Source: a virus
Virus record (IMG/VR): IMGVR_UViG_3300027996_000034
Coordinates: 1 to 60,501 of that record
Reading direction: 5' to 3' (one strand)
DNA: 60,501 nt
Shown: one piece after another, positions 1,318 to 59,521 of the stretch
Position numbering within the stretch: the first letter of the stretch is position 1
Layout of the letters: each line of letters begins with the position of its first letter
Notes under the pieces: generated by a model
What the model was told of the DNA's origin: nothing
Database searches by the model: none
The model's input: only the letters and a program-made list of their open reading frames with translations
Program-made: the position numbers and the translations under genes

Positions 1318-1929
1318 TTAGTTTTGTAATTCCTTTAGGTGAGATTGAAGAGTTCGTTTACCACGAGCAATTCGATTTTTGATTGTGTGTAAAGGTAATT
1401 TATGTTTCTTAGAAATATCACCATATTTCATTTCTCGAACTAATCGATCTTTTACTATTTCTTTGTATAATGGATCGAGCATTTCGATGGTATCTAATAT
1501 AACTTGATGTTTCGCTTGCATCTCATATTCACGTTCTTGGAGTGTTTGAAAATCTTCCTCTGATGGTTCATTTTCAATAGTATTGTACATTATTTTATCG
1601 GTCATACGATCATTATCGTAATAAGAATCGAAAACAGAAAAATTGGTAGTTGCCGCACGTTTTTTTCTTCTTAAAAACATGATTGCTTCATGGTAACCTA
1701 TTCGATATATCCATGTTGATATATGATATTCAGGATTGAACTGATGTATTTTATTGTAAACGATCGCCATAGTCATTGAGAATAAATCCTCAGCAGCATC
1801 ACGATCTCGTGTTATTTTATTGATGTAATTGAGTAGTCCAGGTTTGATTCGATTATAAAGTTCGTTAAATGATTTTTCTGATTTTGTGGAAGAAAAATCT
1901 TCGCCTAAGGTTTTCAATGAATTTGCCAT
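1318..1929 (-). CDS. ECF-type RNA polymerase sigma factor
   Basis: This 203-residue protein has the two-domain layout of extracytoplasmic-function sigma factors. Region 2 (about residues 20-92) includes FNELYNRIKPGLLNYI, the AAEDLFSMTM helix and the ISTWIYRIGYHEAIMFLRRK segment, which binds the -10 element and core polymerase. Region 4 (about 140-200) carries the helix-turn-helix KYGDISKKHKLPLHTIKNRI for -35 recognition. No region 1.1 or 3 is seen. A phage ECF factor would redirect host polymerase. It is distinct from the gp55-like factor at 33813-34175. The upstream region contains an element shared with 22701-22761, so the two genes are probably co-regulated. Its target promoter class is not known. 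Confidence 0.85.
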   Translation of the reverse strand: MANSLKTLGEDFSSTKSEKSFNELYNRIKPGLLNYINKITRDRDAAEDLFSMTMAIVYNKIHQFNPEYHISTWIYRIGYHEAIMFLRRKKRAATTNFSVFDSYYDNDRMTDKIMYNTIENEPSEEDFQTLQEREYEMQAKHQVILDTIEMLDPLYKEIVKDRLVREMKYGDISKKHKLPLHTIKNRIARGKRTLQSHLKELQN

Positions 1930-24381: not shown

Positions 24382-24854
24382 TTATTCTTTATATATTTAA
24401 GAAATGTTTTTCTATCTCTATTTATCAAACGTTTGCAATGGTCTGTGAATGCAACTGAATTATTAAGTACTAATTCGCTGACCTTTTTTCCATCATCAGT
24501 ATAAGCATCATAACAAGAATCACAACAAAAATTTGATATTTTAAAATCTTCCATACGTGATTTAATATCGGTTTTGCAATAAGAACATAACCATGGTATT
24601 ATTCTAATCTCATCTAAAAGTTTACGTTTATCTTTTATTTCACCATCAGTTGGATCAATGAAAAATTTGCTTTTATTTTTTTCATAGTTTTCTTTATCTA
24701 TTAACATAAATAAAGCTTTAACGAAAGTATCATCTTCATAATGCTTCTTTATAAGCGGATATCTTACTAATACTTCTACATGCTGTGGCTTCAATCCTTT
24801 TATTTTAATTCCACATCTAGTTAGACTACTAGGTTTGCCTCTATGAATTTCCAT
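24378..24854 (-). CDS. Zinc-finger hypothetical protein (158 aa)
   Basis: The 158-residue basic protein has a C-terminal metal site: CSYCKTDI and NFCCDSCYDAY (about 90-120), a CxxC...CxxC zinc finger. The N-terminal half is unrecognised. It overlaps both neighbours (the 853-residue internal protein by 14 nt, the RimK fusion by 4 nt), so the three genes form one translationally coupled unit downstream of the capsid gene. Confidence 0.6.
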   Translation of the reverse strand: MEIHRGKPSSLTRCGIKIKGLKPQHVEVLVRYPLIKKHYEDDTFVKALFMLIDKENYEKNKSKFFIDPTDGEIKDKRKLLDEIRIIPWLCSYCKTDIKSRMEDFKISNFCCDSCYDAYTDDGKKVSELVLNNSVAFTDHCKRLINRDRKTFLKYIKNK

Positions 24855-27402
24855 TTACTGCATTTATCCATTTATCCCTAAATGACATTGACTCTTCTAC
24901 CTTTTTATCCTTTTTATCCTTAATTTCTTTAAAGAAGTTTTTAGTTACATTAATAGTAGGATACATAGGATCTTTAGGTTTATCTAAAGTTATTTGATAA
25001 ACTTCTTCTTCGCCTTCTCGTCTAGGCATATCTCCTTCTGGCTCTCTTTCATTTTCTAAAAATGAATGCGTGATTTTTCCAGTAGCATTATTTAAGTGGC
25101 CAAGATCTTTATCCGACATGTTGCGTAATGATACTTTTTTATTCATAAGTGGATTATCTTTATTCTCATCCTCGCTTTTGTCCATTAACTCTTTAGCAAT
25201 GGTATCCTCATCTTTTGGAATATCAGCATCGTCATCAGATGGACATTCATCTTTACCATCGGCTTCTTCATCACCTTTGGCCTTTTCTTTATCCTCTTCA
25301 GAAACAAGTTCTTTTCGTTTATTAGATTCAACTAATACTGATCGATATTCAATTGATACTGATTCTCCGATTGTAGCAAGTTTTTCTTTTGCATCCTCTA
25401 ATTTTTTCTTTTCAGTCTCTAATTTATTCTTAGCTTCTTCCTTTTTAGGACCTTCTTCCGCGTTTTCAAAATCAGTTGTTGCCTTTTCAACCGATTTTTG
25501 CTGTAACTCAATCAATGCCTGTTGAGCCTCTTTTTTAGCTTCAAGGTCCTTTTTTGCAGCTTCAGTATCTTCAACGTTTTGAGCGGCTAATTTATCGGTA
25601 ACTCCAGTTTTCGCTTTTTCTTTTTCGGCATCCGTTGCATCTACTGCAGCTATTGCTGCAGCATGATTTTTATCTGCAGTTTTTCCAGCACCTTCAATTT
25701 TAGGAGTAATTGCCTTAGCTTTCTTTTCTTTTGCTGCAGCATTTTTAGCCAATCCTTTATCAACTTGTTGTTTATCGATCGCGGCTTTAGTCATTAATGC
25801 ATCTCGCTCTGCTTCTAATTCTTCTTTTTTATTAGCGCCTTTTATTTTTGCAGCATAACCGGCTTTTAATCCCATCGCCTTTCCTCCTAAAGAGGTGGCC
25901 TTACCATCTTTATCTATACCGCTAACTCGTTGAGCATCCTGTTCAGCAGCCTCTTGTTCTTTATCTAACTGTTCAATCTCTTTATCTAGATCAGCCTTTA
26001 TCTGTTTTCTTTTCTCTGAAGCTTTAGGATCCGGTACTGTTTTTGCTTCCTCTTCTTTAATATCCGTTCGAAGTGCTTCGATTTGATCATCAAATTCCTT
26101 AGCCTTAGCTTCAATAGCTTCAGGCGTAGTCAATTCAGCTCGCTCCTTTTTAAGTTCACGTGCCTCATCCTCCTTCTTTTCAATATCCTTTTTTATCTTT
26201 TCAACATCCTCTTTAGCTTTTTGAAGTTTTTTAGTTCCTTCATCATTCAATTGAGCCTTTTTATCAGTAAGTTTTTTCTTTTCTTTAGTCCAAGCTTCTT
26301 TCTTTTTTGGGTCTGTTTCTTTAGCATTTTTGTCAACACCTGCTTGGATTTGTTTATCTATAGCTTCAAGTTCTTTTTTTAATGCTTCTTCCTCTTCCTC
26401 TTGCTTAGTTTTTACTTTATCTTGTGCAACTTGCAAGTCACCTTCTTCTCCACCTTCTTCTCCACCTTCTTCTCCACCTTCTTCTCCAGCTGGTGGATCT
26501 GGTTCTGCTGGTGGATCGCCTCCTTCAGGTGTATCCGTTTCTCCATCTGCTGGTGGATCTGGTTCTCCACCTTCTCCGGCCTCTTTTACAGACTCTTCTG
26601 GTGGATCTGGTTCTGCTGGTGGATCGCCTCCTTCAGGTGTATCCGTTTCTCCATCTGCTGGTGGATCGCCTCCTTTAGGTGTATCCGTTTCTTCTTCTGG
26701 TGTTTCTTCAGGCTCTTTTGGTAATGGATGATTTTTTGGATCTAAATCATGTAATGTCTTTTTTAAATCGTATATTTCTTTATCCATATCTGCCATTGCA
26801 TTAGGACCAGTGGCCTTTTTCTTATCATCTTCAAGCTTTGCTATTTCAGCTTCCTTATCCTTTTTGAATTCCTCATATTCCTCTTTAGTGATTGTAGGAT
26901 TGAGATCGTTTTCTTCTTTATATGATTGAACATCCGCTTCAGTCTTGGCCAATTTAATATCTTTTACCGCCTCCCACGCTTTTCGAATTTTTTTCTTCTT
27001 AAATAAAAATGCAATATATGCACCAATTCCGACAGCTGCAATCCCTACACCAGCTGCAGTTGATTTAATTGCGGTAGATCCCATTTGACCAATATCATCA
27101 TCCCATCCTTCAGTAATAGATTCAAAGACTTCAAATCTTTCATGTATAATTAAATCAATATCAAGAGTTTCAAACCGATTTTCTTCAATTAAATCAGATT
27201 CAATTAATAAATGTTTAATAGTATCTAAAGATTCAAATAATCCTCCAGATCCATCACCAACCGATTGAAGTAATAAAAATTTAATGATATTTGCAAATTC
27301 ATCTTCATCTAATTGTTTCAAATCTTCTTTAGTAGCAAGCCGTCTAAGACCTATTACCGCCTCGTTTATCTTAGTAAAATCTTCTAGCGAAATTATGTTC
27401 AT
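24841..27402 (-). CDS. Long coiled-coil internal head protein with TM segment and Pro/Gly/Glu repeats
   Basis: This 853-residue protein starts MNIISLEDFTKINEAVIG, a capsid-targeting-like peptide with the site INE/A at 14-15. Residues about 110-135 form one hydrophobic segment (STAAGVGIAAVGIGAYIAFLF). Residues about 225-320 are low-complexity (TDTPEGGDPPAEPDPP twice, then GEEGG repeats), and about 320-680 is charged coiled coil rich in Lys, Glu and Ala. The C-terminus ends with another conserved-looking block (SFRDKWINAVNG). It follows the capsid gene. I infer a packaged or scaffold-associated protein. Confidence 0.55.
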   Translation of the reverse strand: MNIISLEDFTKINEAVIGLRRLATKEDLKQLDEDEFANIIKFLLLQSVGDGSGGLFESLDTIKHLLIESDLIEENRFETLDIDLIIHERFEVFESITEGWDDDIGQMGSTAIKSTAAGVGIAAVGIGAYIAFLFKKKKIRKAWEAVKDIKLAKTEADVQSYKEENDLNPTITKEEYEEFKKDKEAEIAKLEDDKKKATGPNAMADMDKEIYDLKKTLHDLDPKNHPLPKEPEETPEEETDTPKGGDPPADGETDTPEGGDPPAEPDPPEESVKEAGEGGEPDPPADGETDTPEGGDPPAEPDPPAGEEGGEEGGEEGGEEGDLQVAQDKVKTKQEEEEEALKKELEAIDKQIQAGVDKNAKETDPKKKEAWTKEKKKLTDKKAQLNDEGTKKLQKAKEDVEKIKKDIEKKEDEARELKKERAELTTPEAIEAKAKEFDDQIEALRTDIKEEEAKTVPDPKASEKRKQIKADLDKEIEQLDKEQEAAEQDAQRVSGIDKDGKATSLGGKAMGLKAGYAAKIKGANKKEELEAERDALMTKAAIDKQQVDKGLAKNAAAKEKKAKAITPKIEGAGKTADKNHAAAIAAVDATDAEKEKAKTGVTDKLAAQNVEDTEAAKKDLEAKKEAQQALIELQQKSVEKATTDFENAEEGPKKEEAKNKLETEKKKLEDAKEKLATIGESVSIEYRSVLVESNKRKELVSEEDKEKAKGDEEADGKDECPSDDDADIPKDEDTIAKELMDKSEDENKDNPLMNKKVSLRNMSDKDLGHLNNATGKITHSFLENEREPEGDMPRREGEEEVYQITLDKPKDPMYPTINVTKNFFKEIKDKKDKKVEESMSFRDKWINAVNGNS
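26440..26700 (-). repeat. Coding repeats in internal head protein
   Basis: Two kinds are present: a 12-bp unit (TTCTCCACCTTC type) repeated about four times around 26440-26487, encoding GEEG; and a roughly 70-bp unit encoding DGETDTPEGGDPPAEPDPP present twice (about 26500-26570 and 26610-26690), plus a partial third copy. All in frame; expansion by slippage or recombination is likely. Confidence 0.7.
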
Positions 27403-27494: not shown

Positions 27495-29201
27495 TTAAGC
27501 TAATTGACCAGCATCGTTTTGAACACCGAACGACATGTACATAGTTTGTGGATGGAATCCAGCCTCAACTAAAGCATATCTAGATTTAACAGCGATTTTT
27601 GGCGCCATTGTACCTTCAGCAATAGTTTGAACAGATTCAGCCATTAGATATGGCATAAACACTAGTCCAGGAGAGTTTCCGTCACCTTTTCTACCTACAG
27701 TGATTCGAGTATCACTCCAGCTCATATATGGATCAACATAAACAACCAATCCAGCTAAAGTACCGATAGGGTACAATGAACCAGTTTGTTGGTTTAATGT
27801 ATTCATCATTGGAGCAGGAACGAATCCAGCACAATCTTGTAGTCCAGAACCAACTTGTCCGTTTGTTACTACAAATGTAGCAGGTCCACGTCTTCCTCGG
27901 ATAGCAATCAAGTTTCCAACCGCAAGGATCTTAGACATGATTTTTCTCTGACGAGTATGTAAGTTCTCTGCAGCTGAGTTAGTCTCAGAAGAATTAACTT
28001 GTGGATTTTGATCAAATAGACCAGGTAAAGCATCCATTGGGAATACTGAATTTCCACCAGTTACCCAATCAGATCCTCTAGAATCTAGAGTTGTTAATTG
28101 TGTTTGAGTAGAATAAAGACCACCAGTGGTAGTTCCAAGTAACAAGTTAAATTGAACGTTTTGCGTTGCAACAACTTGACCATGGTTAGTATAACCTAGT
28201 TTTCTAATTCTTGAAAGAATGTTCTTATTAATAGATTGAGTTAACTCGTTAATAAGTACTGACTCAACTTGAGCAACAGCATCTATACCGAATTGTTTCA
28301 AATCTTGAACTTGTTCTCTAGTAACTGCTGCAGCAACTTGGAAAGTTTGTGCCTCAATTGACTTATTGAATAAGCTTAAGTTCATTACATTCTCTTGATT
28401 AGATTCACCTTCTAGTCTTGACATCGGTTCGTTAGTATCATAACGATTTGATGAGAATCCTTGAACGTGATCTTCTAGAGCTTTTACTAAAACTGGTAAA
28501 CCAGCTAAAGTTACAATACCAGTACCACCACTTGCCCAAGTAAATGTTGTTCCTGCAGTTAAACCAGCAGCAACAGTTTGAGTAGCGTTAGCCATAGTAT
28601 CAACTCTAATAATATCGAATGCATCGATTCTAGATTCACCAACGTACATACCAGTAATACCTGTAGAAGTAACAACTACTTCTCCAGCAGATGGTGCAGT
28701 TGTTATGGCCCCTCCTGCAGGATCTGGTGTAATAGTACCATTAGATTTGATTAATAGTGGCATGTCCGGAGAAGCACCTCTATTTTGTGGAACTGGAAGA
28801 GCTCCGGTTTGTCCGATTGAAGGAACAAGTCCTCCACCGTAAACGAAGTCTAAGTATGTCAACACACCCATCGGTCCGTTCATTGGTACTACAGGTACTA
28901 GATCTAAACCAACAGTCTGTGCAGCAACTTGCATAGCAAGCGGAAGAAGAGTGTAAGGTTTATCACCGGAACCAGTAGTTTGAGTACCAAATCCAGATTG
29001 CAATCCAGGATCACCTGGGAATCTAGTAGCACCCATACCATTAACAGAACCAACTGTTGCAAAAGCATTATTCTCATACAACTCGTGGTTATGACAGTAT
29101 TTAGACATCCATTCTAATTTTCCTTTGTCCTCAATACCAGTAGTGGACTCGATAATTGGAGACCATTTTCCGTATATTTCGGATTCATTAATTAAATTCA
29201 T
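27495..29201 (-). CDS. gp23: Major capsid protein (gp23-like)
   Basis: At 568 residues it matches T4 gp23 (521) in size and layout: a cleavable N-terminus, then AMQVAAQTVGLDLVPVVPM and MGVLTYLDFVYGGG, the long E-loop/P-domain with NRYDTNEPMSRLEGE, VLINELTQSINKNILSRIRKL cut to its core INELTQSINKNI, and the C-terminal GLVVYVDPYMSW, GRKGDGNSPGLVFMPYL, KSRYALVE typical of gp23. Prohead sites are visible near the start (LINE/S at 6-7, IIE/S, and LYE/N before NNAFATVG). The ATVGSVNGMG region recurs in the polyprotein at 54247-56742. It forms the capsid lattice. Confidence 0.93.
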   Translation of the reverse strand: MNLINESEIYGKWSPIIESTTGIEDKGKLEWMSKYCHNHELYENNAFATVGSVNGMGATRFPGDPGLQSGFGTQTTGSGDKPYTLLPLAMQVAAQTVGLDLVPVVPMNGPMGVLTYLDFVYGGGLVPSIGQTGALPVPQNRGASPDMPLLIKSNGTITPDPAGGAITTAPSAGEVVVTSTGITGMYVGESRIDAFDIIRVDTMANATQTVAAGLTAGTTFTWASGGTGIVTLAGLPVLVKALEDHVQGFSSNRYDTNEPMSRLEGESNQENVMNLSLFNKSIEAQTFQVAAAVTREQVQDLKQFGIDAVAQVESVLINELTQSINKNILSRIRKLGYTNHGQVVATQNVQFNLLLGTTTGGLYSTQTQLTTLDSRGSDWVTGGNSVFPMDALPGLFDQNPQVNSSETNSAAENLHTRQRKIMSKILAVGNLIAIRGRRGPATFVVTNGQVGSGLQDCAGFVPAPMMNTLNQQTGSLYPIGTLAGLVVYVDPYMSWSDTRITVGRKGDGNSPGLVFMPYLMAESVQTIAEGTMAPKIAVKSRYALVEAGFHPQTMYMSFGVQNDAGQLA

Positions 29202-29230: not shown

Positions 29231-30991
29231 TTATTTATTAAAGCGTCTTTTAAGTTCTTCCGTAACTGTGTCCATGTAAGCAGATGAAGTTTCGTAGTTA
29301 GAAGAATCATCAGATTCTTTTACTACTACTGTTTCGTTTATTTGCTCAGACGGATTATAAGCCCTTAGCTCACGGGTTGACCAGAAATGATCGATCTTGT
29401 ACTGTGTATCAAGAGTTCTCACCGATGCTTGAGCAGTAATAGAAGATTTTTGTGATTCGTTTATAGAATCCCAAGAACTTTTATATTTGCTCGGCATATT
29501 TTTTAGCCAATCGATTTTTGCTTCAGGCTCAACAAATACTGATTCCCATATTGCAGATGCATCAGTTGAACCGAACCACTCATTATTCTCAAATGTTCTA
29601 ATAACTTTCGCCTTAGTCTCATCATCAAATGATTTGTATTCAGTTCTCCTATCTTCATTTACAAAATGTAAGAAGTGAGTATTTGCAGAAGTTTCGTCCA
29701 CCTTTTGCTTCTTAGCGGATTCAACCAACGCTGAAATTTTCTCGTTTAATTCATTTTTGAATGTATTAGTTTCTATAATTAATTCATCAGCAGTTTCTTT
29801 AACTGTTTCTGATTCATTAATTGTTTCTCCAACATTTTTGGATTTGAAATTTTCATTCATTGTTTTAGAAACATAATCTTGGTATTTACCTAGATTTTCT
29901 ACATTATCTTTAACATACTCGGTATAATTAGCAACGGCATCAACACCTTCCATAACGTAATTAGAATATTCAATTACTTTATCTGTTTGTTCGTTTACAT
30001 AATCTTGATATCCGAAACGAGTATTTACATTTTCAGATATATGTTTAGAGTACTCAATGTTTTGATCGGTTTTAAGACCTACATATTCTGCATAATCTTT
30101 TACCTTTCCTAAATTTTCTATAATATAATCATTATGTGAAATAAGGCTATCAACATTTTCTGATAGATTCTCTACATAATTTCCGATTTGATTTACTCGT
30201 TTTGCAATAGCTTCTGAGTATTTAACTAAATCTGTATTTGCGGAAGCTTCATTTACCTTTTCAACTTCAGATTTTAATGAGTCAAAATTCTCTTTAACGA
30301 TTTTTGAATATTCGTTAAAATCTTCGACTGAAATAAAATTGCTGTTAGAATTAGACTCAGCTTCATTTATTGTTTCTTTTGGTGTAGTATTATCCATTGC
30401 TATTAATTCTTTTTGAATATCTGTATTAGTTTCTTCTATATATCCATTGATCTCGAAAATTCCTAGATTATCATCATCAACAAATCCATACTGTTCATTA
30501 ACTCGGTTGAGTTCTGCGTTTTCAAAACCAGGATCTGCAACTAAATCGTATGTAAATAATTTTTTAATTTTAACGTGGCCATTTTCTTGAACCACACCAG
30601 CAGCTCTACTAGAAATGTGTATTGGAATGCCACCATCAACAAGTGCTTGAGCTTGTTTTCCTGCGGTAGTATCTAATAACCGGATTTTTCCTCTAACAAC
30701 CTTGTTAGCTTTGTCATATGTTATTTCCTCAATAACATGAGATACATTTTGTAGAGAAATGTCAAATTGTTTTGGGTGATCTAATTCACCAAGAAGCTTA
30801 CCGCTTTTGAGTTTTTCTTGAAGACCTTCAATATGAGGCATCAACTCTTTCTCATCGTATATACGATTGTTCTTATTTTTTTTACCTATCTCAGAAAATA
30901 TTCCTTCTAATACATACTTGTCAGCGCCGGTTCCATTGGCTTCAAGTATACTAGTGGATCTTTCTAAGACTAATAATTTTGCGTCATTCAT
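29231..30991 (-). CDS. gp21: Prohead protease fused to scaffold (gp21-gp22-like)
   Basis: Residues about 1-175 are a gp21-type prohead serine protease (S77 family): EGIFSEIGKKNKNNRIYDEK, GELDHPKQFDIS with the catalytic His, and IPIHISSRAAGVV with the catalytic Ser. In T4 gp21 (protease) and gp22 (scaffold) are separate genes; here one 586-residue chain continues with a long coiled coil (about 215-420) in which Y-x-x-Y-V units recur every ~14-16 residues, then a C-terminal tag AYMDTVTEELKRRFNK. Self-cleavage sites (ILE/A at 17-18, INE/A, VNE/A) would free the protease from its scaffold. It sits between portal and capsid genes. Confidence 0.85.
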   Translation of the reverse strand: MNDAKLLVLERSTSILEANGTGADKYVLEGIFSEIGKKNKNNRIYDEKELMPHIEGLQEKLKSGKLLGELDHPKQFDISLQNVSHVIEEITYDKANKVVRGKIRLLDTTAGKQAQALVDGGIPIHISSRAAGVVQENGHVKIKKLFTYDLVADPGFENAELNRVNEQYGFVDDDNLGIFEINGYIEETNTDIQKELIAMDNTTPKETINEAESNSNSNFISVEDFNEYSKIVKENFDSLKSEVEKVNEASANTDLVKYSEAIAKRVNQIGNYVENLSENVDSLISHNDYIIENLGKVKDYAEYVGLKTDQNIEYSKHISENVNTRFGYQDYVNEQTDKVIEYSNYVMEGVDAVANYTEYVKDNVENLGKYQDYVSKTMNENFKSKNVGETINESETVKETADELIIETNTFKNELNEKISALVESAKKQKVDETSANTHFLHFVNEDRRTEYKSFDDETKAKVIRTFENNEWFGSTDASAIWESVFVEPEAKIDWLKNMPSKYKSSWDSINESQKSSITAQASVRTLDTQYKIDHFWSTRELRAYNPSEQINETVVVKESDDSSNYETSSAYMDTVTEELKRRFNK

Positions 30992-35791: not shown

Positions 35792-35801
35792 TTTATATAT
35801 C
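35792..35801 (-). promoter_or_regulatory. Late promoter box GATATATAAA (489-aa gene)
   Basis: Minus-strand AAAGATATATAAACAAT, 29-38 bp before the start at 35763. It overlaps the last codons of the methyltransferase gene. Confidence 0.55.
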
Positions 35802-36578
35802 TTTGATTTTCTTTTGAATAATATATTCGTTGTTGATATCACCAGCTCCACCGTTAGAAAATGCTTTAGCTTCGTTCTTAATTGTTCCGATAACATTATA
35901 ATTTTCGAACAAACCATCGTCAAGCATTCCATCAACTGCTTTTTTAACACCAGGCGATTCTTTATGATCCATATAATCGTCGAATATTATTAGGCCACCA
36001 GGATTAACTGTTGCTTCATAGTTTTTAAAGTCTCGCTCAACCATATGTTTTGCATGTGATCCATCTATAAAGAATACATCAGCACCACCTGCCTTTTCAA
36101 TTGCAGCACAAGATTCTTTAATGATTTTAGGGTTATCTGATAGTCCAACAAATTTTTCTAAGGTTTGACCTTCGCTGATATATTTTGCTGTGTTATTATC
36201 GAACATTTTTTCTTGACCGGATTTAGCTTTGAATGGATCGATAGAAATATGAGATTTACCTTTTTTATTTTGAAGCATTAAGCACATAGATCCTCCACAA
36301 AAACTTCCAATTTCAGCAAATGTTTTATAGTCTTCTCCGAGCATTTCTGATAATGGATATGTTATATGAAAGTGATGGTGAAACGTATTTCCTTCCATAT
36401 CTTCACTTATTGATTGAACCATTTCAGAAGATTTCTTATATGATGGATGTTTAAGAATATCAGATTCTGTAAACATTTTAGTAGAAGATTTACCTTCATT
36501 CAATCCCCATTGTTCTACATCAGGGAATTGTTTATCATGCATTTCATTAAGAAAGTCTTTAAATGATAGTAATTTCAT
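35793..36578 (-). CDS. SAM-dependent methyltransferase with capsid-targeting-like N-terminus
   Basis: Residues about 84-230 form a class I methyltransferase: FAEIGSFCGGSMCLML (glycine-rich SAM loop), HISIDPF (acidic after strand 2), FFIDGSHAKHMVERDF and NPGGLIIFDDYMDHKE (motif IV/post). It resembles the Methyltransf_24 type that modifies small molecules or saccharides. Residues 1-28 (MKLLSFKDFLNEM, then GLNE/G) look like a capsid-targeting peptide with two prohead-protease sites, so the enzyme may be packaged, trimmed and injected. It is flanked by internal head protein genes. Substrate unknown. Confidence 0.7.
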   Translation of the reverse strand: MKLLSFKDFLNEMHDKQFPDVEQWGLNEGKSSTKMFTESDILKHPSYKKSSEMVQSISEDMEGNTFHHHFHITYPLSEMLGEDYKTFAEIGSFCGGSMCLMLQNKKGKSHISIDPFKAKSGQEKMFDNNTAKYISEGQTLEKFVGLSDNPKIIKESCAAIEKAGGADVFFIDGSHAKHMVERDFKNYEATVNPGGLIIFDDYMDHKESPGVKKAVDGMLDDGLFENYNVIGTIKNEAKAFSNGGAGDINNEYIIQKKIKDI

Positions 36579-46179: not shown

Positions 46180-47310
46180 TTAGAATAACGATAATGTATA
46201 CGCTAAGCTTCGGTTTAATCTTGGCATTCCGGATGGAATAACAATTCTATTTAATGGTTCGAGTATAAACATTTCAAATTGTCGTTCAATATCTATTTTT
46301 GGTGCTAATTGATATGGATATTCTCCTGGCAAATAACCAAATACATCACAAAATTGATCATCTGCATAATACCAACGAATTTTATCGCTTGTTTTTACAA
46401 GGTCAAAATTATTTTTTTGTGGTGAATTATTGACTAAATAGTTATGATACGCACCAGCTCGAACATGTATTGGACATCCTTTAGCGAGTTCAAATTCGTT
46501 TGTATCATTTAATACAAATTTATTGTAATCTCCGATTCTTCGATTAGATGATATTTGTTCTATATCGGCTAATTTGAATTGAGTCTTAATATCTTTAAGT
46601 ACTTGAGTTAATTCAGCAACAACATCGTTATCTAATCTATCTTTTGAAAATAGAAATTTTACGATATCAGTTAGTTTATCTCGACAGAAAGCCGGGGTTG
46701 ATGATTGTATAATTTCTAAACCTTTAGTCGATATGTATGTAAGAGGATCATAAGTTTTACCATCCTTCCAAACAATATTTTGAACATATTTCTTTTTTGA
46801 AACCCATATTGCATTATTTGCTATCGTCTCAAGTTCAAAATCTAAGAAGTTTTCAGAATTATAAGAATTTGCATAATCAGAAAGTACTTTTTTAATATAG
46901 TCTGCTAATCGATGTTTGTTAATTTGTAAAATGAAGTCTGTTATTTCGCCATCCCATTTACAAGATTCCATAACCTCTTCGAATACGATATATCCTGAAT
47001 CCGTATCTGTATATTTCCATACATGTCGTTTGAGCGGCTTAACCTCACTTAATCCCATTGTTTTATGAAGTGCAAAATCTTTATGCCAAAATTCTTTGAA
47101 GTATTTTTCAACACAACGTTCAGTATATTTTATTGCATCTTGGCCTTGAAGAGTTACTGTTTCAGCGATTACTGTGCTTCTAAAATGGAACCAGTCATTT
47201 GCAAATGCTCCATAAATAGAATTAATGCACAACTTTATAGCTTCTTGTAAGTTGAAACATCTAAGGCTTTCCTTTTCTAGACTCTGTATTTTAAGTTCTT
47301 TTTCAGTCAT
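46180..47310 (-). CDS. gp43B: DNA polymerase, family B, C-terminal part of split gp43 (fingers/palm/thumb)
   Basis: The 376-residue protein starts at the fingers helix: NLQEAIKLCINSIYGAFAN (Pol motif B, K-x3-N-S-x-Y-G) and has YTDTDSGYIVF (motif C, catalytic Asp pair) and a thumb, ending NRSLAYTLSLF, which resembles the clamp-binding tail of T4 gp43. Exonuclease and Pol motif A are missing; they are on 52127-53509. The first residues (TEKELKIQSLEKES) are a charged helix that could pair with the last helix of the other half. It follows the sliding clamp gene directly. Confidence 0.9.
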   Translation of the reverse strand: MTEKELKIQSLEKESLRCFNLQEAIKLCINSIYGAFANDWFHFRSTVIAETVTLQGQDAIKYTERCVEKYFKEFWHKDFALHKTMGLSEVKPLKRHVWKYTDTDSGYIVFEEVMESCKWDGEITDFILQINKHRLADYIKKVLSDYANSYNSENFLDFELETIANNAIWVSKKKYVQNIVWKDGKTYDPLTYISTKGLEIIQSSTPAFCRDKLTDIVKFLFSKDRLDNDVVAELTQVLKDIKTQFKLADIEQISSNRRIGDYNKFVLNDTNEFELAKGCPIHVRAGAYHNYLVNNSPQKNNFDLVKTSDKIRWYYADDQFCDVFGYLPGEYPYQLAPKIDIERQFEMFILEPLNRIVIPSGMPRLNRSLAYTLSLF

Positions 47311-48098: not shown

Positions 48099-49118
48099 TT
48101 ATTCACTCTGAATTTTCAACGATGCTTTATGGATTGACTCATACATTGATTCAACCAATTCTTCAGTTAAGCCATGTTCTTTACCTTGTGCTATTCGACT
48201 TGTAAGGATTTGATTCCATCGATTCATCTGTAAAGGTAAGATGTTGTTATCTGATTTGTATGTTCCAATTTGTTTAGCAACTTGCATTCTTTCTGAAAGT
48301 GTACTTATCAATAATGAATCTAACTCATCGACTTTTCTTCTGTAGGGTGCAAGACCATCATCTTCAACTTCATGTTTTCCAAATTTTAATCCATCAACAA
48401 GGAATCTATATTGAGTTGGTGTTATTTGTTGTTCAGCATCAGTTATTGCATCTTCTGGATTTGAATGAACCTCAACCATCATACCATCAGCACCGAAATT
48501 TATTCCGCGTTGCGTGACGTGTTGAATTAACATTGGATTTCCAGCAATATGTGAAGGATCAATTAACATAGGAATGTTAGGCATCTTTCTTTTGAATGCA
48601 ACTGGAACGTGCCATCCAGGCATATTTCTATATTTTGTTTTTTCGAATGTTGAGAAACCTCTGTGAATTGCACCGATGTTTTTAACGCCTTTTGCCTGTA
48701 ACCTTTCAATTGCACCAATCCAAAGTGATAAGTCAGGATTCATTGGGTTCTTTACATAAATTGGAATGTCAGTACCTTCAAGTTCTTCAGCTATAGCTTG
48801 CATACTAAATGGATTTCCACTTGTTCTAGCACCAATCCATAACATATCAACTCCATGTCCAATAGCTAATTTTATATGAGCTGGTTCTGCAACTTCACAA
48901 CAGATTTTGAATCCGAATTTTTCTTTGACATCTTGAAGCCATTTTAAAGCATCTTCACCATGTCCTTCGAATGCACCTGGATTAGTTCTCGGTTTCCATA
49001 CTCCTGCTCGGAAATAATCTATTTTGATATTTTGTTTCGATAACCCAAGAGCAACTTTCATAAGTTGCTCTTTAGATTCAGCTGAACAAGGTCCAGCAAT
49101 ATGTGTGAATTCTGTCAT
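48099..49118 (-). CDS. Bifunctional DAHP synthase / chorismate mutase
   Basis: Residues about 1-255 are a DAHP synthase of the KdsA-related class: IAGPCSAES, RAGVWKPRTNPGAFEGHG, CEVAEP, LWIGARTSGNPF, YVKNPM, GAIHRGFS, DPSHIAGNP. Residues about 262-339 are an AroQ chorismate mutase (YRRKVDELDSLLISTLSERM, GTYKSDN, NRW, IHKASLKIQ), retaining the substrate-binding Arg, Lys, Arg and Gln positions. This fusion is characteristic of Bacteroidetes. It makes DAHP (first shikimate step) and converts chorismate to prephenate. It overlaps the upstream U32 gene by 1 nt and is probably translationally coupled. It is unusual in a phage. Confidence 0.93.
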   Translation of the reverse strand: MTEFTHIAGPCSAESKEQLMKVALGLSKQNIKIDYFRAGVWKPRTNPGAFEGHGEDALKWLQDVKEKFGFKICCEVAEPAHIKLAIGHGVDMLWIGARTSGNPFSMQAIAEELEGTDIPIYVKNPMNPDLSLWIGAIERLQAKGVKNIGAIHRGFSTFEKTKYRNMPGWHVPVAFKRKMPNIPMLIDPSHIAGNPMLIQHVTQRGINFGADGMMVEVHSNPEDAITDAEQQITPTQYRFLVDGLKFGKHEVEDDGLAPYRRKVDELDSLLISTLSERMQVAKQIGTYKSDNNILPLQMNRWNQILTSRIAQGKEHGLTEELVESMYESIHKASLKIQSE

Positions 49119-50179
49119 TACGCTTTAGGTTTTAAGTAAGATTCTAATCTGTTTTCTAAGAATGCGTATTCAAAGTCAAGATCTTTCATTTCAGGATTTT
49201 CATATTCTTTAATAAAGTCAGTTCCATATCCAGCGATATCAATATCATATTTAGGATCCATGAAACTTGTTTTACCTTTTGCAACTCTAGCGATGTTTTT
49301 AACATCAGCCCATAGTTCAAGTAAATTACCTTCGAACTTTTGAGATAAGTAAGTTTCAACAATCCATAAGATGTAAGGTGTTGGATGTGTTCTTCCTGTT
49401 ACTTTGAATTTTTTGATTCCATGAACTTCATTATAGTAAGCCATAGATTGTGGAGCAATAAATCTTGAACGAGTCCATTCAACAGGATTTCCAATGTTTC
49501 TTATTTGTGTACAGATACCCATTGGATATCTTTTGAATTTAGAAGCATCTTTATCAGTTTTACATTGAGCATGTTCGTTGTAACATTGAACTCGATCAGC
49601 ACAATCAGTAATACAATATTCATTAGCAAGTAATTCAGTTTCGATTCCTAATGCATCGCCTTCTTTTTTCAAAAGAGCTAAGGATTCGAAGTTACGATTT
49701 AATGCAACATCCAAACAAACTTTATTGATGTTTGGGTTTCTTCGTTTTAATTCTCTTAATTGATAAGGAGTATTTGCACGATAAATTGTAGAGATCTCAA
49801 CTGGAATATCAGAATATTCAGCAATTATTTCCATTGACAAAGGATGTGCTACTGTTAATCTTCCAATTCCAATTCGTTTAAGATATGCTAGAGTTTCTTT
49901 GACATGTTCAATATCAATTTTAGCTTTATCAACGATTGGAGTATTGTCTGTGTAGTTAACGAGAATTCCTGCTTCATTGTAATCTTTTACTGATTGTTCG
50001 AAAGATTCTAGTGAAACATCTGGAACTCTAAAGTCAGGACGAGCAGATCCAAAGATTTTGATTTTTCTGATAGAGCCGTATACTTCATGTACTTGGACTT
50101 CAGAATATTTTTCGTTCAATTCCTTAAATTTTGAAGGAAGAACTGGATCATAGTTTGATCCGACCATTAGTTCGATCAT
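49118..50179 (-). CDS. U32 peptidase-family Fe-S protein (TrhP/RlhA/UbiU-like)
   Basis: The 353-residue protein has a TIM-barrel N-terminal part (RLTVAHPLSMEII, VEISTIYRANTPYQL, KVCLDVALNRNF) and Cys189, 193, 199, 206 (ANEYCITDCADRVQCYNEH region) plus Cys223, fitting the [4Fe-4S] site of U32 proteins. It ends with FIAPQSMAYYNEVHG, KFKVTGRTHPTPYI and FEGNLLELW. Characterised members hydroxylate tRNA (TrhP), 23S rRNA (RlhA) or ubiquinone precursors (UbiU/V), the RNA enzymes using prephenate as hydroxyl donor. It is the first gene after a strong promoter, coupled to the DAHP synthase/chorismate mutase. The substrate is inferred only. Confidence 0.8.
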   Translation of the reverse strand: MIELMVGSNYDPVLPSKFKELNEKYSEVQVHEVYGSIRKIKIFGSARPDFRVPDVSLESFEQSVKDYNEAGILVNYTDNTPIVDKAKIDIEHVKETLAYLKRIGIGRLTVAHPLSMEIIAEYSDIPVEISTIYRANTPYQLRELKRRNPNINKVCLDVALNRNFESLALLKKEGDALGIETELLANEYCITDCADRVQCYNEHAQCKTDKDASKFKRYPMGICTQIRNIGNPVEWTRSRFIAPQSMAYYNEVHGIKKFKVTGRTHPTPYILWIVETYLSQKFEGNLLELWADVKNIARVAKGKTSFMDPKYDIDIAGYGTDFIKEYENPEMKDLDFEYAFLENRLESYLKPKA

Positions 50180-52126: not shown

Positions 52127-53509
52127 CTATAATTCTTTTTTTAATTTTTGGATCTCAATTTCAAGATCTAAATGTTTGCGTTTATGTTTTTTCCGTTCTG
52201 TATATAATTCTGTTAAGATTGATTTCATAGCACTTGGTTTTTTATCAAATACTGCTCCAGTAACTGCTACTATTTTAGTTGGGTCTTTTCTATATATTTC
52301 TAATTTTTCTTGGCTATGTTCTTTCTTTATGAAGGATTCAGGAGATATATTTATTTGTCTCATTATTGATGGGTATAGAGAAGCAAAATCAAAACACGCA
52401 GCGCCTTTAAAGAATCCAGTTTCTGGTTCTTTAACATATGCACCTTCATATCCTTGTCTTTCTCCAGGTCTAATAAATTCATCGGCTACGACACAATCTC
52501 TTTCATAATATTTTTTCCAAAGAAATGCTTCAGTAATATTAACTGCAGATGTACATTTGTACATTGATATGTTGCACAATACTGATACTGATAACACCGC
52601 ATTTATTGTTGCAATTTTTTCATGGATTTCTGTTACCAACGCTGAATCAATCGCATTATAGAACACGTATTTGTCATAATCATTCTCGTAGAGTTCCTGT
52701 AAGGTACCATTGTATTTAATCTTATTAATACCTAATACTTGTTTTGCAACGAAATCTAGTGTATTATTTTCTTTAACTGCAACAGTTCTATCAAATTGTC
52801 GATAAATTTGGAGATAGTCCATCATTGCAATATGTAATGGAATCATATCTCGATTAACTTTATTTGATACACTGGCTTTTGCACAATCAATACCAAGTTT
52901 TCTACATCGATTATAAATGTATTTCCAGTCAAATCCTATGAAATTCCATCCAGTTACAAATGCCATGTGTGGTAGCATTTTAGTAATGAATGTGTATAGC
53001 ATATTATATTCATCATCAAAGCAAACATATTTAAAATCCCAATCACCATAATCTTTCATATGGTTTCGAACATCATCAAATATTTTTTTTTGTTCTTCTG
53101 GTGATATTGGCTTCCATCCTAATACAGCAACTTGTTTATTTTGCATTGCAATTGACATACATGTGATTCGTTCTCTAGCAACCTCCGGGTTTGGAAAACC
53201 ATCTATTACCTCAGTCTCAATATCAACCGAATATATTTTTGGAAAGTTTAATGCAGATAATTGTTCAATATCAGAATTGTTATGAATAAACTCATAGATA
53301 GACCATTTGTTTAAATACTTTGCTCGAACTTTTTTAACAGGCTTACCATCCCAATTTCTATATTTAGGATCTTTATCTTTATCTGTTTCCGAACATATCG
53401 CCCAATTCTTTACATCTTCAATTTTATAATCATTTACTTTTACATCACCATTTTCATCGAAGTATGATATTCTTAAATCATTAAATCTACTTTCTATATC
53501 TAATATCAT
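52127..53509 (-). CDS. gp43A: DNA polymerase, family B, N-terminal part of split gp43 (exonuclease and palm motif A)
   Basis: The 460-residue protein has the proofreading motifs YSVDIETEV (Exo I), TGWNFIGFDWKYIYNR (Exo II) and FYNAIDSALV (Exo III), and Pol motif A CFDFASLYPSIMRQ. It ends within the fingers (LTELYTERKKHKRKHLDLEI then LQKLKKEL-like helix, reading IQKLKKEL) with a TAG stop. Motifs B and C are on 46180-47310. A functional polymerase would need both chains to associate. Split family B polymerases are known in some T4-like phages, but here RNR, U32, DAHP synthase/chorismate mutase and clamp genes lie between the halves. Confidence 0.9.
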   Translation of the reverse strand: MILDIESRFNDLRISYFDENGDVKVNDYKIEDVKNWAICSETDKDKDPKYRNWDGKPVKKVRAKYLNKWSIYEFIHNNSDIEQLSALNFPKIYSVDIETEVIDGFPNPEVARERITCMSIAMQNKQVAVLGWKPISPEEQKKIFDDVRNHMKDYGDWDFKYVCFDDEYNMLYTFITKMLPHMAFVTGWNFIGFDWKYIYNRCRKLGIDCAKASVSNKVNRDMIPLHIAMMDYLQIYRQFDRTVAVKENNTLDFVAKQVLGINKIKYNGTLQELYENDYDKYVFYNAIDSALVTEIHEKIATINAVLSVSVLCNISMYKCTSAVNITEAFLWKKYYERDCVVADEFIRPGERQGYEGAYVKEPETGFFKGAACFDFASLYPSIMRQINISPESFIKKEHSQEKLEIYRKDPTKIVAVTGAVFDKKPSAMKSILTELYTERKKHKRKHLDLEIEIQKLKKEL

Positions 53510-54246: not shown

Positions 54247-56742
54247 TTATTCTCCCAATGCTTCGATATCCCATTGAATTCTTTCTAATGGATCTTCATC
54301 ATTTGTTCTGTTCTTCTTCACCCAATCAACAAGACCTCTTTCCATAGTAGCATTTTGTGCCATATCATATGAATGTTTCCATCCATCGCCGGAAGCCATA
54401 TCTTCAATCCATTGATCATATTTCTTTTGATTCCATTTTACTGGCTTTATCTTCTTAGCATGGGGTCCATTACCTAAAGTTGATTTGATTGCATTGTAAT
54501 GATTCGGGACAAATACATCCACTGCCCAATCTTCGTCTCTTTTATTACCATTCCAATACTTAATCTTCTTTCTGAATCTTTTTAATTCGTAATCAGCATT
54601 TTCAATCTTTTCTTTTCTAGTAATGCCACCTCGTTTATATCCAAATGATAACTTCATATCATCTAATATATCTGGATCTGTTTCGAAATGAAGGTCTTTA
54701 ATATCAACATTATCATATTGGCCTTCATTAACTGATTCTTCATTAACATTAACTCCCTTTCTTTTAGCATACTTTTCAACATCTCTTAAAAGACCTAGTA
54801 GTTTATTTTTATCTAAATCTTCTTCATCGTTATTCAGTTCTTTTTGAAGATTATTCATTAAACTCTTCATGTATTTTTTTACACCGGAATCTAAATCACC
54901 CTTATCTATGTTGGTTTGTATAAGGTTAACAAGTTCTAAAACATCTTCCTTTTTTAGATTTTTAGCAGCTTGTTTATCCTTGAACTTCTTTTTATAGTGT
55001 CGAACTACGTCTCCCCAACTATCTCCAGGAAAGAACGCTCCTGGACTGACAATCATGCCGGGACCCATCACAGCAAATATTACACCTGCCATTAACCCAA
55101 CTCCTCCAGCTAAAGCTAATAAAGGTTGCCACCATTCAAAACCTTCATTAACTGAGTCATGAGCTTGTATTGAAGTTTCGATTGCTTCTTTAGCCTTTTT
55201 AATATCACCATTAAAGTATGCTTTTGCTAATTGATACAAAACTATATCTGATGGTATTTTACCAGATTTTCCAATTTTAGAAATTTCATCATCACCTTTA
55301 CCTTCATTAACTGATTCTGTTATAGAGTTACCAGTCTTTTTTACTTGATGTCCATCCATTGCATAGAATCGCATATCTTGGAAGTCAACTAAATATTGCT
55401 CATCCGATTCATAGCTTATTAATAGTCCTTTTTCACCTTTCTTAATAGTCATTTTAGTTCCAAAATAATCGAAGGTTTTTGTTGGTGCAATCCACTCAAC
55501 CTCTTCGTATTTTTTACCTTCATTAACTGATTCTTTCAAATCTGTTAATTTTATTACACGTTTCTTACCATCGAAAGAAACAAAATAAGATTTATCATCT
55601 GCTGCCGTTAAGTGATATCCGAATGATTTACCCCATACCTCTTTTGCCTTTTTAAGATCTGAGCCATAAAAATATTTTTCAAGACCCGATGTACTTTTTA
55701 TTGTTTTAGGAACTTTTACCTTGCCTTCATTTAAAGATTCTCCTACAAATGCATTGAACTTCAAAAAATTGTAAATATTTTTTGCTTGTTTTTCATTTTC
55801 CTCTTCATCATCAGTTAATTCGCTTGATGCTGCTAAATCACCAGAACCAGTTTCCTGAGTTGAAAATTCTGCTTGAGTTCCAGGATTTCCAGGCAATGAA
55901 ACATTACCCATTCCATTAACACTTCCTGGAGTTGCCATTGCATTATTTTCTTCAATCGCATATCTCATAGCTTCTGCATATGCAATTGCTTCTTCAAGAT
56001 GTTTATTTGATGATTCTTTTACCGCCATACCACCATTCTTTTTCATATATTTCTTAACGGTGGATCTCCATTTTGTATCAACATTTGTAACTGTAACTCG
56101 ATTACCAACTTGATCGCCTATACCAATTGCAGAATTTTCAATATCTAAATCAAATTGACGTGCACTTTCTTCATCAGGGAATTCAAATATTACACTTAAA
56201 CCTTCATCGACCGATTCATCAAACAATGTTTTTGCACGTGGAAATGTTAAAGATTTACCAAGTTCTCTATCATGATCCTTTTTCATCTCTAGATAATTCC
56301 AAGGAGATATCCAACCAGTTTCTTGCGCTAATTGAACTGCAAGATCAAAGGGTTTCATAGGCTTTGATAAAGTAACATTGAATCTAGGTGAAGAGTATCT
56401 ACCTTCCATATCACCTTCCACTATTTTATATTTTCCTTTTGGGATAACTTTAATTCGTTCGAAAGGTTTTCCAATTCCAACTATACTTACCGTTTTATGA
56501 TCTTTGTATCTTTTTTCTGCGTTCTTTTTTATTGGATCATCATATGCTGCTTCATCTACCGAATCTTCTAATTTATTTGGTAGCGTTTCTTCTGGAGTTT
56601 CTGCGTAATCTTTCAAATCGGCTTCTTTCTTTTTGGATAAATCTCTTATTTTCTGATCAACCGTGGATGCATCAACTTCACCTCGCTTAACTGCTAAGGC
56701 TAGTCCGAATAATTTCCGTTGAGCTTTTGATACTGCTGGCAT
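54247..56742 (-). CDS. Large internal head polyprotein cut at [VIL]-[ND]-E/[GA] sites
   Basis: The 831-residue protein is divided by repeated ESVNEG-like sites: VDE64/A, VDE180/G, IEE265/N, LNE339/G, VNE408/G, VNE480/G, VNE533/G, VNE673/G. These fit the gp21 rule [LI]-x-E. Module 1 (MPAVSKAQRKLFGLALAVKR...) resembles the small phage DUF3008 type. Module 4 starts NNAMATPGSVNGMG, matching the capsid protein N-terminus. Modules 5 and 6 look like small beta barrels. Module 8 has two hydrophobic segments (540-570) and a helical bundle; module 9 is a basic alpha/beta domain. I infer nine packaged products. No late box was found upstream, so it may share the promoter at 57343. Confidence 0.65.
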   Translation of the reverse strand: MPAVSKAQRKLFGLALAVKRGEVDASTVDQKIRDLSKKKEADLKDYAETPEETLPNKLEDSVDEAAYDDPIKKNAEKRYKDHKTVSIVGIGKPFERIKVIPKGKYKIVEGDMEGRYSSPRFNVTLSKPMKPFDLAVQLAQETGWISPWNYLEMKKDHDRELGKSLTFPRAKTLFDESVDEGLSVIFEFPDEESARQFDLDIENSAIGIGDQVGNRVTVTNVDTKWRSTVKKYMKKNGGMAVKESSNKHLEEAIAYAEAMRYAIEENNAMATPGSVNGMGNVSLPGNPGTQAEFSTQETGSGDLAASSELTDDEEENEKQAKNIYNFLKFNAFVGESLNEGKVKVPKTIKSTSGLEKYFYGSDLKKAKEVWGKSFGYHLTAADDKSYFVSFDGKKRVIKLTDLKESVNEGKKYEEVEWIAPTKTFDYFGTKMTIKKGEKGLLISYESDEQYLVDFQDMRFYAMDGHQVKKTGNSITESVNEGKGDDEISKIGKSGKIPSDIVLYQLAKAYFNGDIKKAKEAIETSIQAHDSVNEGFEWWQPLLALAGGVGLMAGVIFAVMGPGMIVSPGAFFPGDSWGDVVRHYKKKFKDKQAAKNLKKEDVLELVNLIQTNIDKGDLDSGVKKYMKSLMNNLQKELNNDEEDLDKNKLLGLLRDVEKYAKRKGVNVNEESVNEGQYDNVDIKDLHFETDPDILDDMKLSFGYKRGGITRKEKIENADYELKRFRKKIKYWNGNKRDEDWAVDVFVPNHYNAIKSTLGNGPHAKKIKPVKWNQKKYDQWIEDMASGDGWKHSYDMAQNATMERGLVDWVKKNRTNDEDPLERIQWDIEALGE

Positions 56743-59047: not shown

Positions 59048-59521
59048 TTATGAGGTCATCGTAGTAAACCAAGACTCATCTGCTGAAGCTGAAAAATTCT
59101 TTTTGATATATTTTTCCATATCTTTGTATCCTTCAGGATCTTTCTTTTGCATAATATCTAATACCTTTCCTAATCCCATTTGCATGACTTTATCGTCAAA
59201 TTCTTCATGGTCTTCGTTTTTAGCAGCCTCTTCAATTTCAATTTCGATTTCTTCTTCACCTTCAGATGAATCTTTCATTTTTTTAGCAAGCGTAGCGGTT
59301 TTCTTTTTCTTTGCTTTATTTTCAGCTTCTTTCTTTCCATCTTCAGCTTCTGCATCTAATTCTTCTGGTGGTGTAGTTGGGCCTTTTGAAGCATCAGCCA
59401 TATCATCAGCTAATTGTTCTTCGTCATCTTTAGGTGCACCCATTTTGTTGATAGTTTTTTCAATTTCTTTAGCAGTTTTTGATTCTGTTAAGAATTGATC
59501 ATACGACTTAATGTGTTTCAT
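59048..59521 (-). CDS. Acidic internal head protein with capsid-targeting-like N-terminus (157 aa)
   Basis: The protein starts MKHIKSYDQFLTESKTAKE, closely resembling T4 internal-protein leaders (MKTYQEFIAEA), with LTE/S at 13-14 as the predicted cleavage site. The rest is highly acidic and Lys-rich, with an IEIEIEE run and a C-terminal helix (KVMQMGLGKVLDIMQ). Its stop lies 1 nt from the next start. A GAATATATAA box precedes it. A packaged, DNA-compatible internal protein is the likely role. Confidence 0.6.
   Translation of the reverse strand: MKHIKSYDQFLTESKTAKEIEKTINKMGAPKDDEEQLADDMADASKGPTTPPEELDAEAEDGKKEAENKAKKKKTATLAKKMKDSSEGEEEIEIEIEEAAKNEDHEEFDDKVMQMGLGKVLDIMQKKDPEGYKDMEKYIKKNFSASADESWFTTMTS

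Follow-up and report, generated by a model that had tools for sequence, protein, structure and literature searches.

A candidate prohead-cargo polyprotein with copied protease-type linkers and a capsid-arm mimic in an uncultured T4-like phage

The internal proteins of phage T4 carry a short N-terminal capsid-targeting sequence. In IPI, IPII, IPIII and Alt an aromatic targeting motif is followed by [IVL]xE, with a predicted cut after the E by the gp21-type protease, and diverse cargo stands behind this conserved tag (PMC9026906, PMC7411985); in IPIII, residues 4 and 7 matter for targeting and residues 8 and 10 for processing (PMC9026906). The locus described here has a targeting-like motif of this kind and predicted cut sites beside diverse modules, but T4 uses one gene per cargo and an N-terminal tag that is cut off, whereas here many modules share one predicted precursor with repeated linkers, and its best targeting-like motif lies inside the chain. 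Several prohead-protease cuts within one protein are also known, from T4 gp22, gp67 and gp68 and from SPN3US gp53 and gp54 (PMC9958956, PMC10052503); in those cases the cuts leave debris of scaffold or propeptide, or one mature chain, whereas the segments considered here are conserved modules distinct from one another. The polyvalent proteins found in phages and conjugative elements, which are likewise multidomain and fast-shuffled and are in some cases packaged, have been compared with polyproteins (PMC5512222); in contrast to them, no embedded peptidase or known effector domain was found in our ORF, and its linkers resemble prohead-protease sites. A sequence-only reading of this DNA had called the mechanism little described. 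Multi-cut substrates are in fact described (T4 gp22/gp67 and the SPN3US gp53/gp54 propeptides), although we came across no account of a precursor that combines many different cargo modules, and a search of open-access papers gave no direct precedent for prohead-protease cleavage of a phage polyprotein and none for a capsid-arm mimic, which is weak evidence of absence.

We propose, with a probability of roughly 77%, that an 831-aa ORF encodes a prohead cargo precursor that is cut by a T4-type protease into about nine small head proteins, including a copy of the capsid arm. Support comes from the sites, the protease gene, modularity at the sites, stand-alone counterparts of the modules, the identity of the arm and its tracking of the capsid protein, and the DNA identity of the linkers. 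The ORF is intact and lies in a 60.5-kb virus record, analysed whole and referred to below as the window, in which nearly all genes are on the minus strand (Table 1); the ORF too is on this strand, which the sequence-only reading had left unstated.

The eight cut sites proposed from the sequence alone proved right to the residue: 64 (SVDE/A), 180 (SVDE/G), 265 (IEE/N), 339 (SLNE/G), and 408, 480, 533 and 673 (all SVNE/G). Two extra candidates, 335 (FVGE/S) and 476 (SITE/S), adjoin listed sites. The spacing, described as regular, is roughly even rather than strict, with segments of 64, 116, 85, 74, 69, 72, 53, 140 and 158 aa. The strict motif [SED][VILM][NDT]E[GASDNV], which in this ORF includes 476 and excludes 265, is far more frequent than expected from residue shuffling (Table 1); elsewhere in the window it occurs five times in the 758-aa ORF, three times in the 192-aa ORF directly upstream and not at all in most other ORFs. 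A gp21-type prohead protease gene is present in the same genome.

Table 1. Positions of the features discussed, numbered from the first nucleotide of the window
Feature	Position	Strand	Basis
Major capsid protein (MCP), gp23 family	27495..29201	-	T4 gp23 match, E 1.3e-5
T4-type prohead protease	29231..30991	-	Pfam Peptidase_S77 (PF03420) E 9e-11; phrog_207 E 2e-38
Head-region ORF, 489 aa	34294..35763	-	C-terminal 64 residues occur in relatives as separate targeted genes (MKLSTFDEWLNE/S)
Methyltransferase	35793..36578	-	N-terminal targeting-like MKLLSFKDFLNE
Second candidate polyprotein, 758 aa	36588..38864	-	N-terminal targeting sequence SFEDFVNE and 5 strict sites
Candidate polyprotein ORF, 831 aa	54247..56742	-	8 strict sites vs 0.28 expected
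Module 9, residues 674-831, helical	54250..54723	-	57 loci found; 23-sequence alignment, AF2 pLDDT 73
Module 8, residues 534-673, hydrophobic segment and helices, ends SVNE/G	54724..55143	-	54-64% identity in L002, L003, L004
Module 7, residues 481-533, short helical, ends SVNE/G	55144..55302	-	AlphaFold model
Module 6, residues 409-480, small beta module, ends SVNE/G	55303..55518	-	Strands 422-446 in AlphaFold model
Module 5, residues 340-408, ends SVNE/G	55519..55725	-	AF2 alpha/beta elements 361-408
Module 4, residues 266-339, ends SLNE/G	55726..55947	-	62% identity to own MCP 39-80, E 4e-12
Capsid-arm mimic proper, residues 266-302 (NNAMATPGSVNGMG...GSGD)	55837..55947	-	Arm comparison with own MCP
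Internal capsid-targeting-like FNAFVGE, residues 329-335	55738..55758	-	Aligned FxxF[VI]xE in many relatives
Module 3, residues 181-265	55948..56202	-	71% identity over 183-244 to module in other contig
Module 2, residues 65-180	56203..56550	-	Both flanking sites SVDE with rare TCG serine codon
Module 1, residues 1-64, DUF3008, ends SVDE/A	56551..56742	-	Pfam PF11450 E 1.3e-5, above cut-off
Upstream gene, 192 aa	56745..57323	-	3 strict sites
157-aa protein	59048..59521	-	N-terminal targeting-like MKHIKSYDQFLTE

An IMG/VR scan with the whole 831-aa protein returned four loci with one module matched in each, and when every ORF of about 150 loci was compared with it by blastp, single-module matches were again obtained, which mostly both started and ended at sites. 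In a non-redundant set of 56 related multi-site ORFs, homology broke off internally at 423 points, of which 118 fell within 6 aa of a site, compared with 49.5 expected, and none of 3000 rotations reached this count; the other 305 breakpoints lie away from any site at this tolerance, for which ragged BLAST ends are a partial cause. An alignment of trimmed module fragments to the full precursor with MAFFT misplaced the short modules and was discarded; an alignment of natural multi-module relatives worked and was used. It shows a common order of DUF3008, arm, charged stretch, FxxF[VI]xE and module 9, with modules 2-3 and 5-8 of the window as insertions at sites into this DUF3008-arm-module 9 frame. 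In the close relative G044 (the contig of L024/L178, with 77% identity in the capsid protein), a 194-aa gene reads DUF3008-DUF5661-arm and ends right after the arm and KFLKFNAFVGK, the point at which the gene of the window continues. DUF5661, which this gene carries as its middle module, has an ORF to itself in a 429/462-kb phage (IMG G062, LR756500.1), with the targeting sequence MEFVKTYLEFINE. The sequence-only proposal, in which many small proteins are packaged through one precursor, is supported in part: the genome has a prohead protease gene, and modules are shuffled, added or lost between conserved sites in many relatives, which is what that reading had suggested looking for. These comparisons speak well for a precursor of small head proteins that the protease would process.

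The modules differ in how widely they recur. The block thought to be DUF3008-like is Pfam DUF3008, with a score above the curated cut-off, and it opens other polyproteins (L118, L124, L127, L135, L136) or sits in smaller ORFs. Module 3 has its counterpart in an ESVELDE-type polyprotein on a 134.8-kb contig that encodes its own S77 protease and carries five exact coding copies of the ESVELDE linker, all in that polyprotein gene. The homolog of module 6 is a stand-alone 61-aa ORF in L118 (E 4.6e-10), and module 8 recurs at 64% identity in L004 within a 1300-aa polyprotein, flanked by ESINE/G and ESVNE/D. Module 9 is the last module behind a targeting-like N-terminus in L121 and L132 and lies mid-polyprotein elsewhere, followed by ESVVTE, ESVNE or ESLVTE and then by unrelated modules. 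Among the loci compared, modules 2, 5 and 7 had no useful relatives: none was found for module 2, and the sole match of module 5 covered 21 residues. In isolated phages, tblastn of the precursor matched the DUF3008 part only, in Synechococcus phages S-SM2 and S-WAM1, and the module 9 search matched nothing; module 9 also had no homolog in a scan of bacterial and archaeal genomes and no PDB or Pfam relative.

Polyproteins were also seen outside the window. L236:1500-3947, on a T4-type phage contig, encodes an 815-aa polyprotein that has module 3 in common with the window, and its eight ESVELDE-type linkers read as a second linker dialect. Longer polyproteins of 1163 to >1315 aa, with 8-12 sites of ESVVTE or ESVNE type, are found at L130:5025-8513, L129:5187-9131 and L004:690-4592.

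Some modules of this kind are stand-alone genes elsewhere, where they open with a T4-type [FY]xxF[VIL]xE sequence. Modules homologous to independent proteins include module 6, the arm mimic, the DUF5661 of the close relative, and parts of two further ORFs of the window: the last 64 residues of the 489-aa ORF are separate targeted genes of 73-81 aa in six relatives, and residues 158-258 of the 758-aa ORF match a stand-alone targeted 104-aa ORF beginning MRNIESFEDFVNE in L200. Conversely, homologs of the 192-aa ORF are modules of larger polyproteins in L001, L098 and L142. The window holds at least one further candidate polyprotein ORF of the same kind, which the sequence-only reading had not noted. 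The density of the pattern [FYLW]xx[FYW][VILM]xE over the first 25 residues of ORFs is 6.2 times that elsewhere; the pattern usually ends LNE, VNE or INE, and fits the T4 IPIII rules in its residues. FNAFVGE of the 831-aa protein is internal and occupies the same place in many relatives; in the stand-alone counterparts the motif is N-terminal. At L001:4458-5514 two neighbouring ORFs both carry QVKLYEQFINE, one N-terminally and one internally, possibly a fusion caught mid-way.

The linkers are also alike as DNA, a feature that goes beyond the sequence-only reading. The 831-aa gene codes each of its four SVNE sites as TCAGTTAATGAA, as the 758-aa ORF does its two, and SVDE sites 64 and 180 have the rare TCG serine codon in common. 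Across polyproteins, 41 of 98 same-peptide site pairs had identical DNA (3.9 expected), compared with 0 of 11 pairs when sites of similar type in the protease-scaffold ORFs were examined. Tetrapeptides that recur in these polyprotein genes outside the sites were DNA-identical in 127 of 312 cases (46 expected), so the copied-linker effect is stronger at sites, yet not exclusive to them, and the linker signal may in part reflect general internal repetition. With short repeats lying in frame between the modules, recombination could gain or lose whole modules.

These results bear on the possibility that the ORF encodes a scaffold or core protein which the protease degrades to peptides that leave the prohead, its modules being functionless after maturation. 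T4 gp21 does cut gp22, gp67 and gp68 to small peptides (PMC9958956), and the protease gene of the window has a C-terminal extension with several similar sites that looks like scaffold. However, the modules of the 831-aa protein are conserved at 50-70% identity, the sites lie between and not within them, and copied linkers are absent from the protease-scaffold ORFs. Because the modules are conserved as bounded units and some are present as separate targeted genes, we consider degradation to debris unlikely and favor the release of distinct head proteins.

Module 4 offers a second feature that had escaped the sequence-only reading, in that it appears to mimic the arm of the mature capsid protein. 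It consists of the arm mimic, an acidic/basic linker and the internal FNAFVGE. Residues 261-302 of the 831-aa protein match residues 39-80 of the phage's own capsid protein, and the match runs from the predicted capsid cut (ELYE43/N44, in ELYE/NNAF) to GSGD, just ahead of the conserved capsid body, covering the capsid arm (residues 44-80, nt 28962-29072). The first residue of the mimic corresponds to the one with which the mature capsid protein is predicted to begin, so that the phage's own mature-arm sequence stands directly behind an E-site. It recurs in at least 25 distinct ORFs of relatives with the pattern GMG (rarely GIG) ... GSGD followed by a charged stretch, and the residue after GSGD is usually I, V or L in the mimic and K in the capsid protein; one entry in the arm-pattern list, from L004, was a false positive (a hydrophobic module). 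Stand-alone arm-mimic genes of 78-90 aa occur near the dUTPase gene in L181, L183 and L186, and in L183 the mimic sits behind a targeting motif and E (YEDFLKE/NSAAAT). Mimics score higher against the capsid arm of their own phage (82.7 vs 75.0 in a within-clade permutation, p 0.0002), and the loop lengths of mimic and own capsid arm correlate (r 0.78); this tracking is owed in part to shared descent. When isolated phages were searched for the mimic, the sole record to contain one was LR756500.1, itself from an uncultured phage; pT24 was rejected as a carrier (a weak match with three stops).

Alternatively, the product could be an uncut multidomain virion or intracellular protein whose acidic ESVNEG linkers are alike by repeat descent, with no proteolysis. 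As DNA repeats, the linkers could indeed spread without being protease sites. However, their cores conform to the rule for prohead-protease sites and resemble the way targeting sequences end, the arm mimic begins at the equivalent of the predicted mature capsid start, and stand-alone genes put a targeting sequence and an E-site ahead of the same modules; we consider an uncut protein unlikely, slightly more so than a scaffold. A polyvalent-type ejected effector processed by an embedded peptidase (as P1 DarA/Ddr) is very improbable, since, although such proteins are also modular, shuffled and phage-encoded and have been likened to polyproteins (PMC5512222), Pfam scans of this and related polyproteins found no peptidase domain and no typical or known conflict domains, and the motif fits a separate prohead protease.

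Structure prediction for the whole precursor with 14 relatives gave a pLDDT of 55 and a pTM of 0.26, with several modules lacking a confident fold; the better-modelled stretches were 1-50, 181-220, 590-660 and 770-831. Seven of the eight sites lie in low-confidence stretches (block pLDDT 32-42 vs the mean of 55), which in these models agrees with domain boundaries at the sites without proving them. The exception is site 408, which lies outside disordered stretches in a confident helix (pLDDT 77). Module 9, modelled with 23 relatives, gave a moderate helical model (Table 1). Foldseek against the PDB returned nothing useful for either the whole precursor or module 9.

For a cargo precursor of this kind, we infer cleavage, packaging, ejection, arm docking and recombination at the linkers. 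The precursor would be carried into the prohead core, with targeting probably by the FNAFVGE inside it, and the T4-type prohead protease would cut after [VIL]xE at the linkers, freeing about nine products in the head: DUF3008, module 2, module 3, a free arm copy, and modules 5 to 9. The arm-mimic product, with the same start as the mature capsid protein, would probably fill arm-binding sites on the shell, and the other modules would ride inside the head and leave with the DNA on ejection. The linkers would double as short DNA repeats for the in-frame gain, loss and exchange of modules between phages, and at least some of the building blocks would be former single genes with their own targeting sequence.

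In T4, expansion brings the equivalent arm segment from inside the shell to its outer face, where it binds adjacent subunits (PMC9958956). The mimic copies the segment equivalent to this gp23* N-arm/N-fist, directly after the predicted maturation cut; it differs in being a separate small predicted product with a charged tail. By analogy with T4, it would be simplest to suppose that the mimic, once released, uses the same docking site. Our broader suggestion, to which we give somewhat less than even odds, is that large T4-like phages of one clade supply a free capsid-arm copy, as a polyprotein product or from a small gene, which docks in the arm sites of the expanding shell to seal the shell or anchor cargo, the linkers serving as both protease and recombination sites in a plug-in cargo cassette.

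If the cargo-precursor reading is correct, tailed phages would use RNA-virus-style polyproteins, with the head protease as the processing enzyme and many head proteins loaded at equal dose, and would acquire new cargo when modules insert in frame at linkers that can be used again. What large uncultured phages carry as cargo would then be readable from sequence, any module between such sites being a candidate packaged protein, and factors for host takeover or counter-defence could be sought among these few modules first. As for the arm mimic, it would be a testable new element of capsid assembly.

Several other genes of the window were noted in passing. An 853-aa lysine/glutamate-rich protein (24841-27402, minus strand) adjoins the capsid gene, as its relatives do in close relatives too, and carries an N-terminal NE site and a SITE/G site followed by a hydrophobic segment. 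The family-B DNA polymerase looks, from its translations, to be split in two minus-strand ORFs, 52127-53509, with DFASLYPSI near its end, and 46180-47310, with NSIYG and YTDTDS; the several genes between them read as ribonucleotide reductase, peptidase U32-like, DAHP synthase-like and sliding clamp. Judged likewise from translations, a DAHP synthase/chorismate-mutase-like gene adjoins a U32-peptidase-like gene (48099-49118 and 49118-50179), a pair that would be unusual metabolic cargo for a phage. An ORF at 1318-1929 (minus strand) reads like an ECF-type sigma factor.
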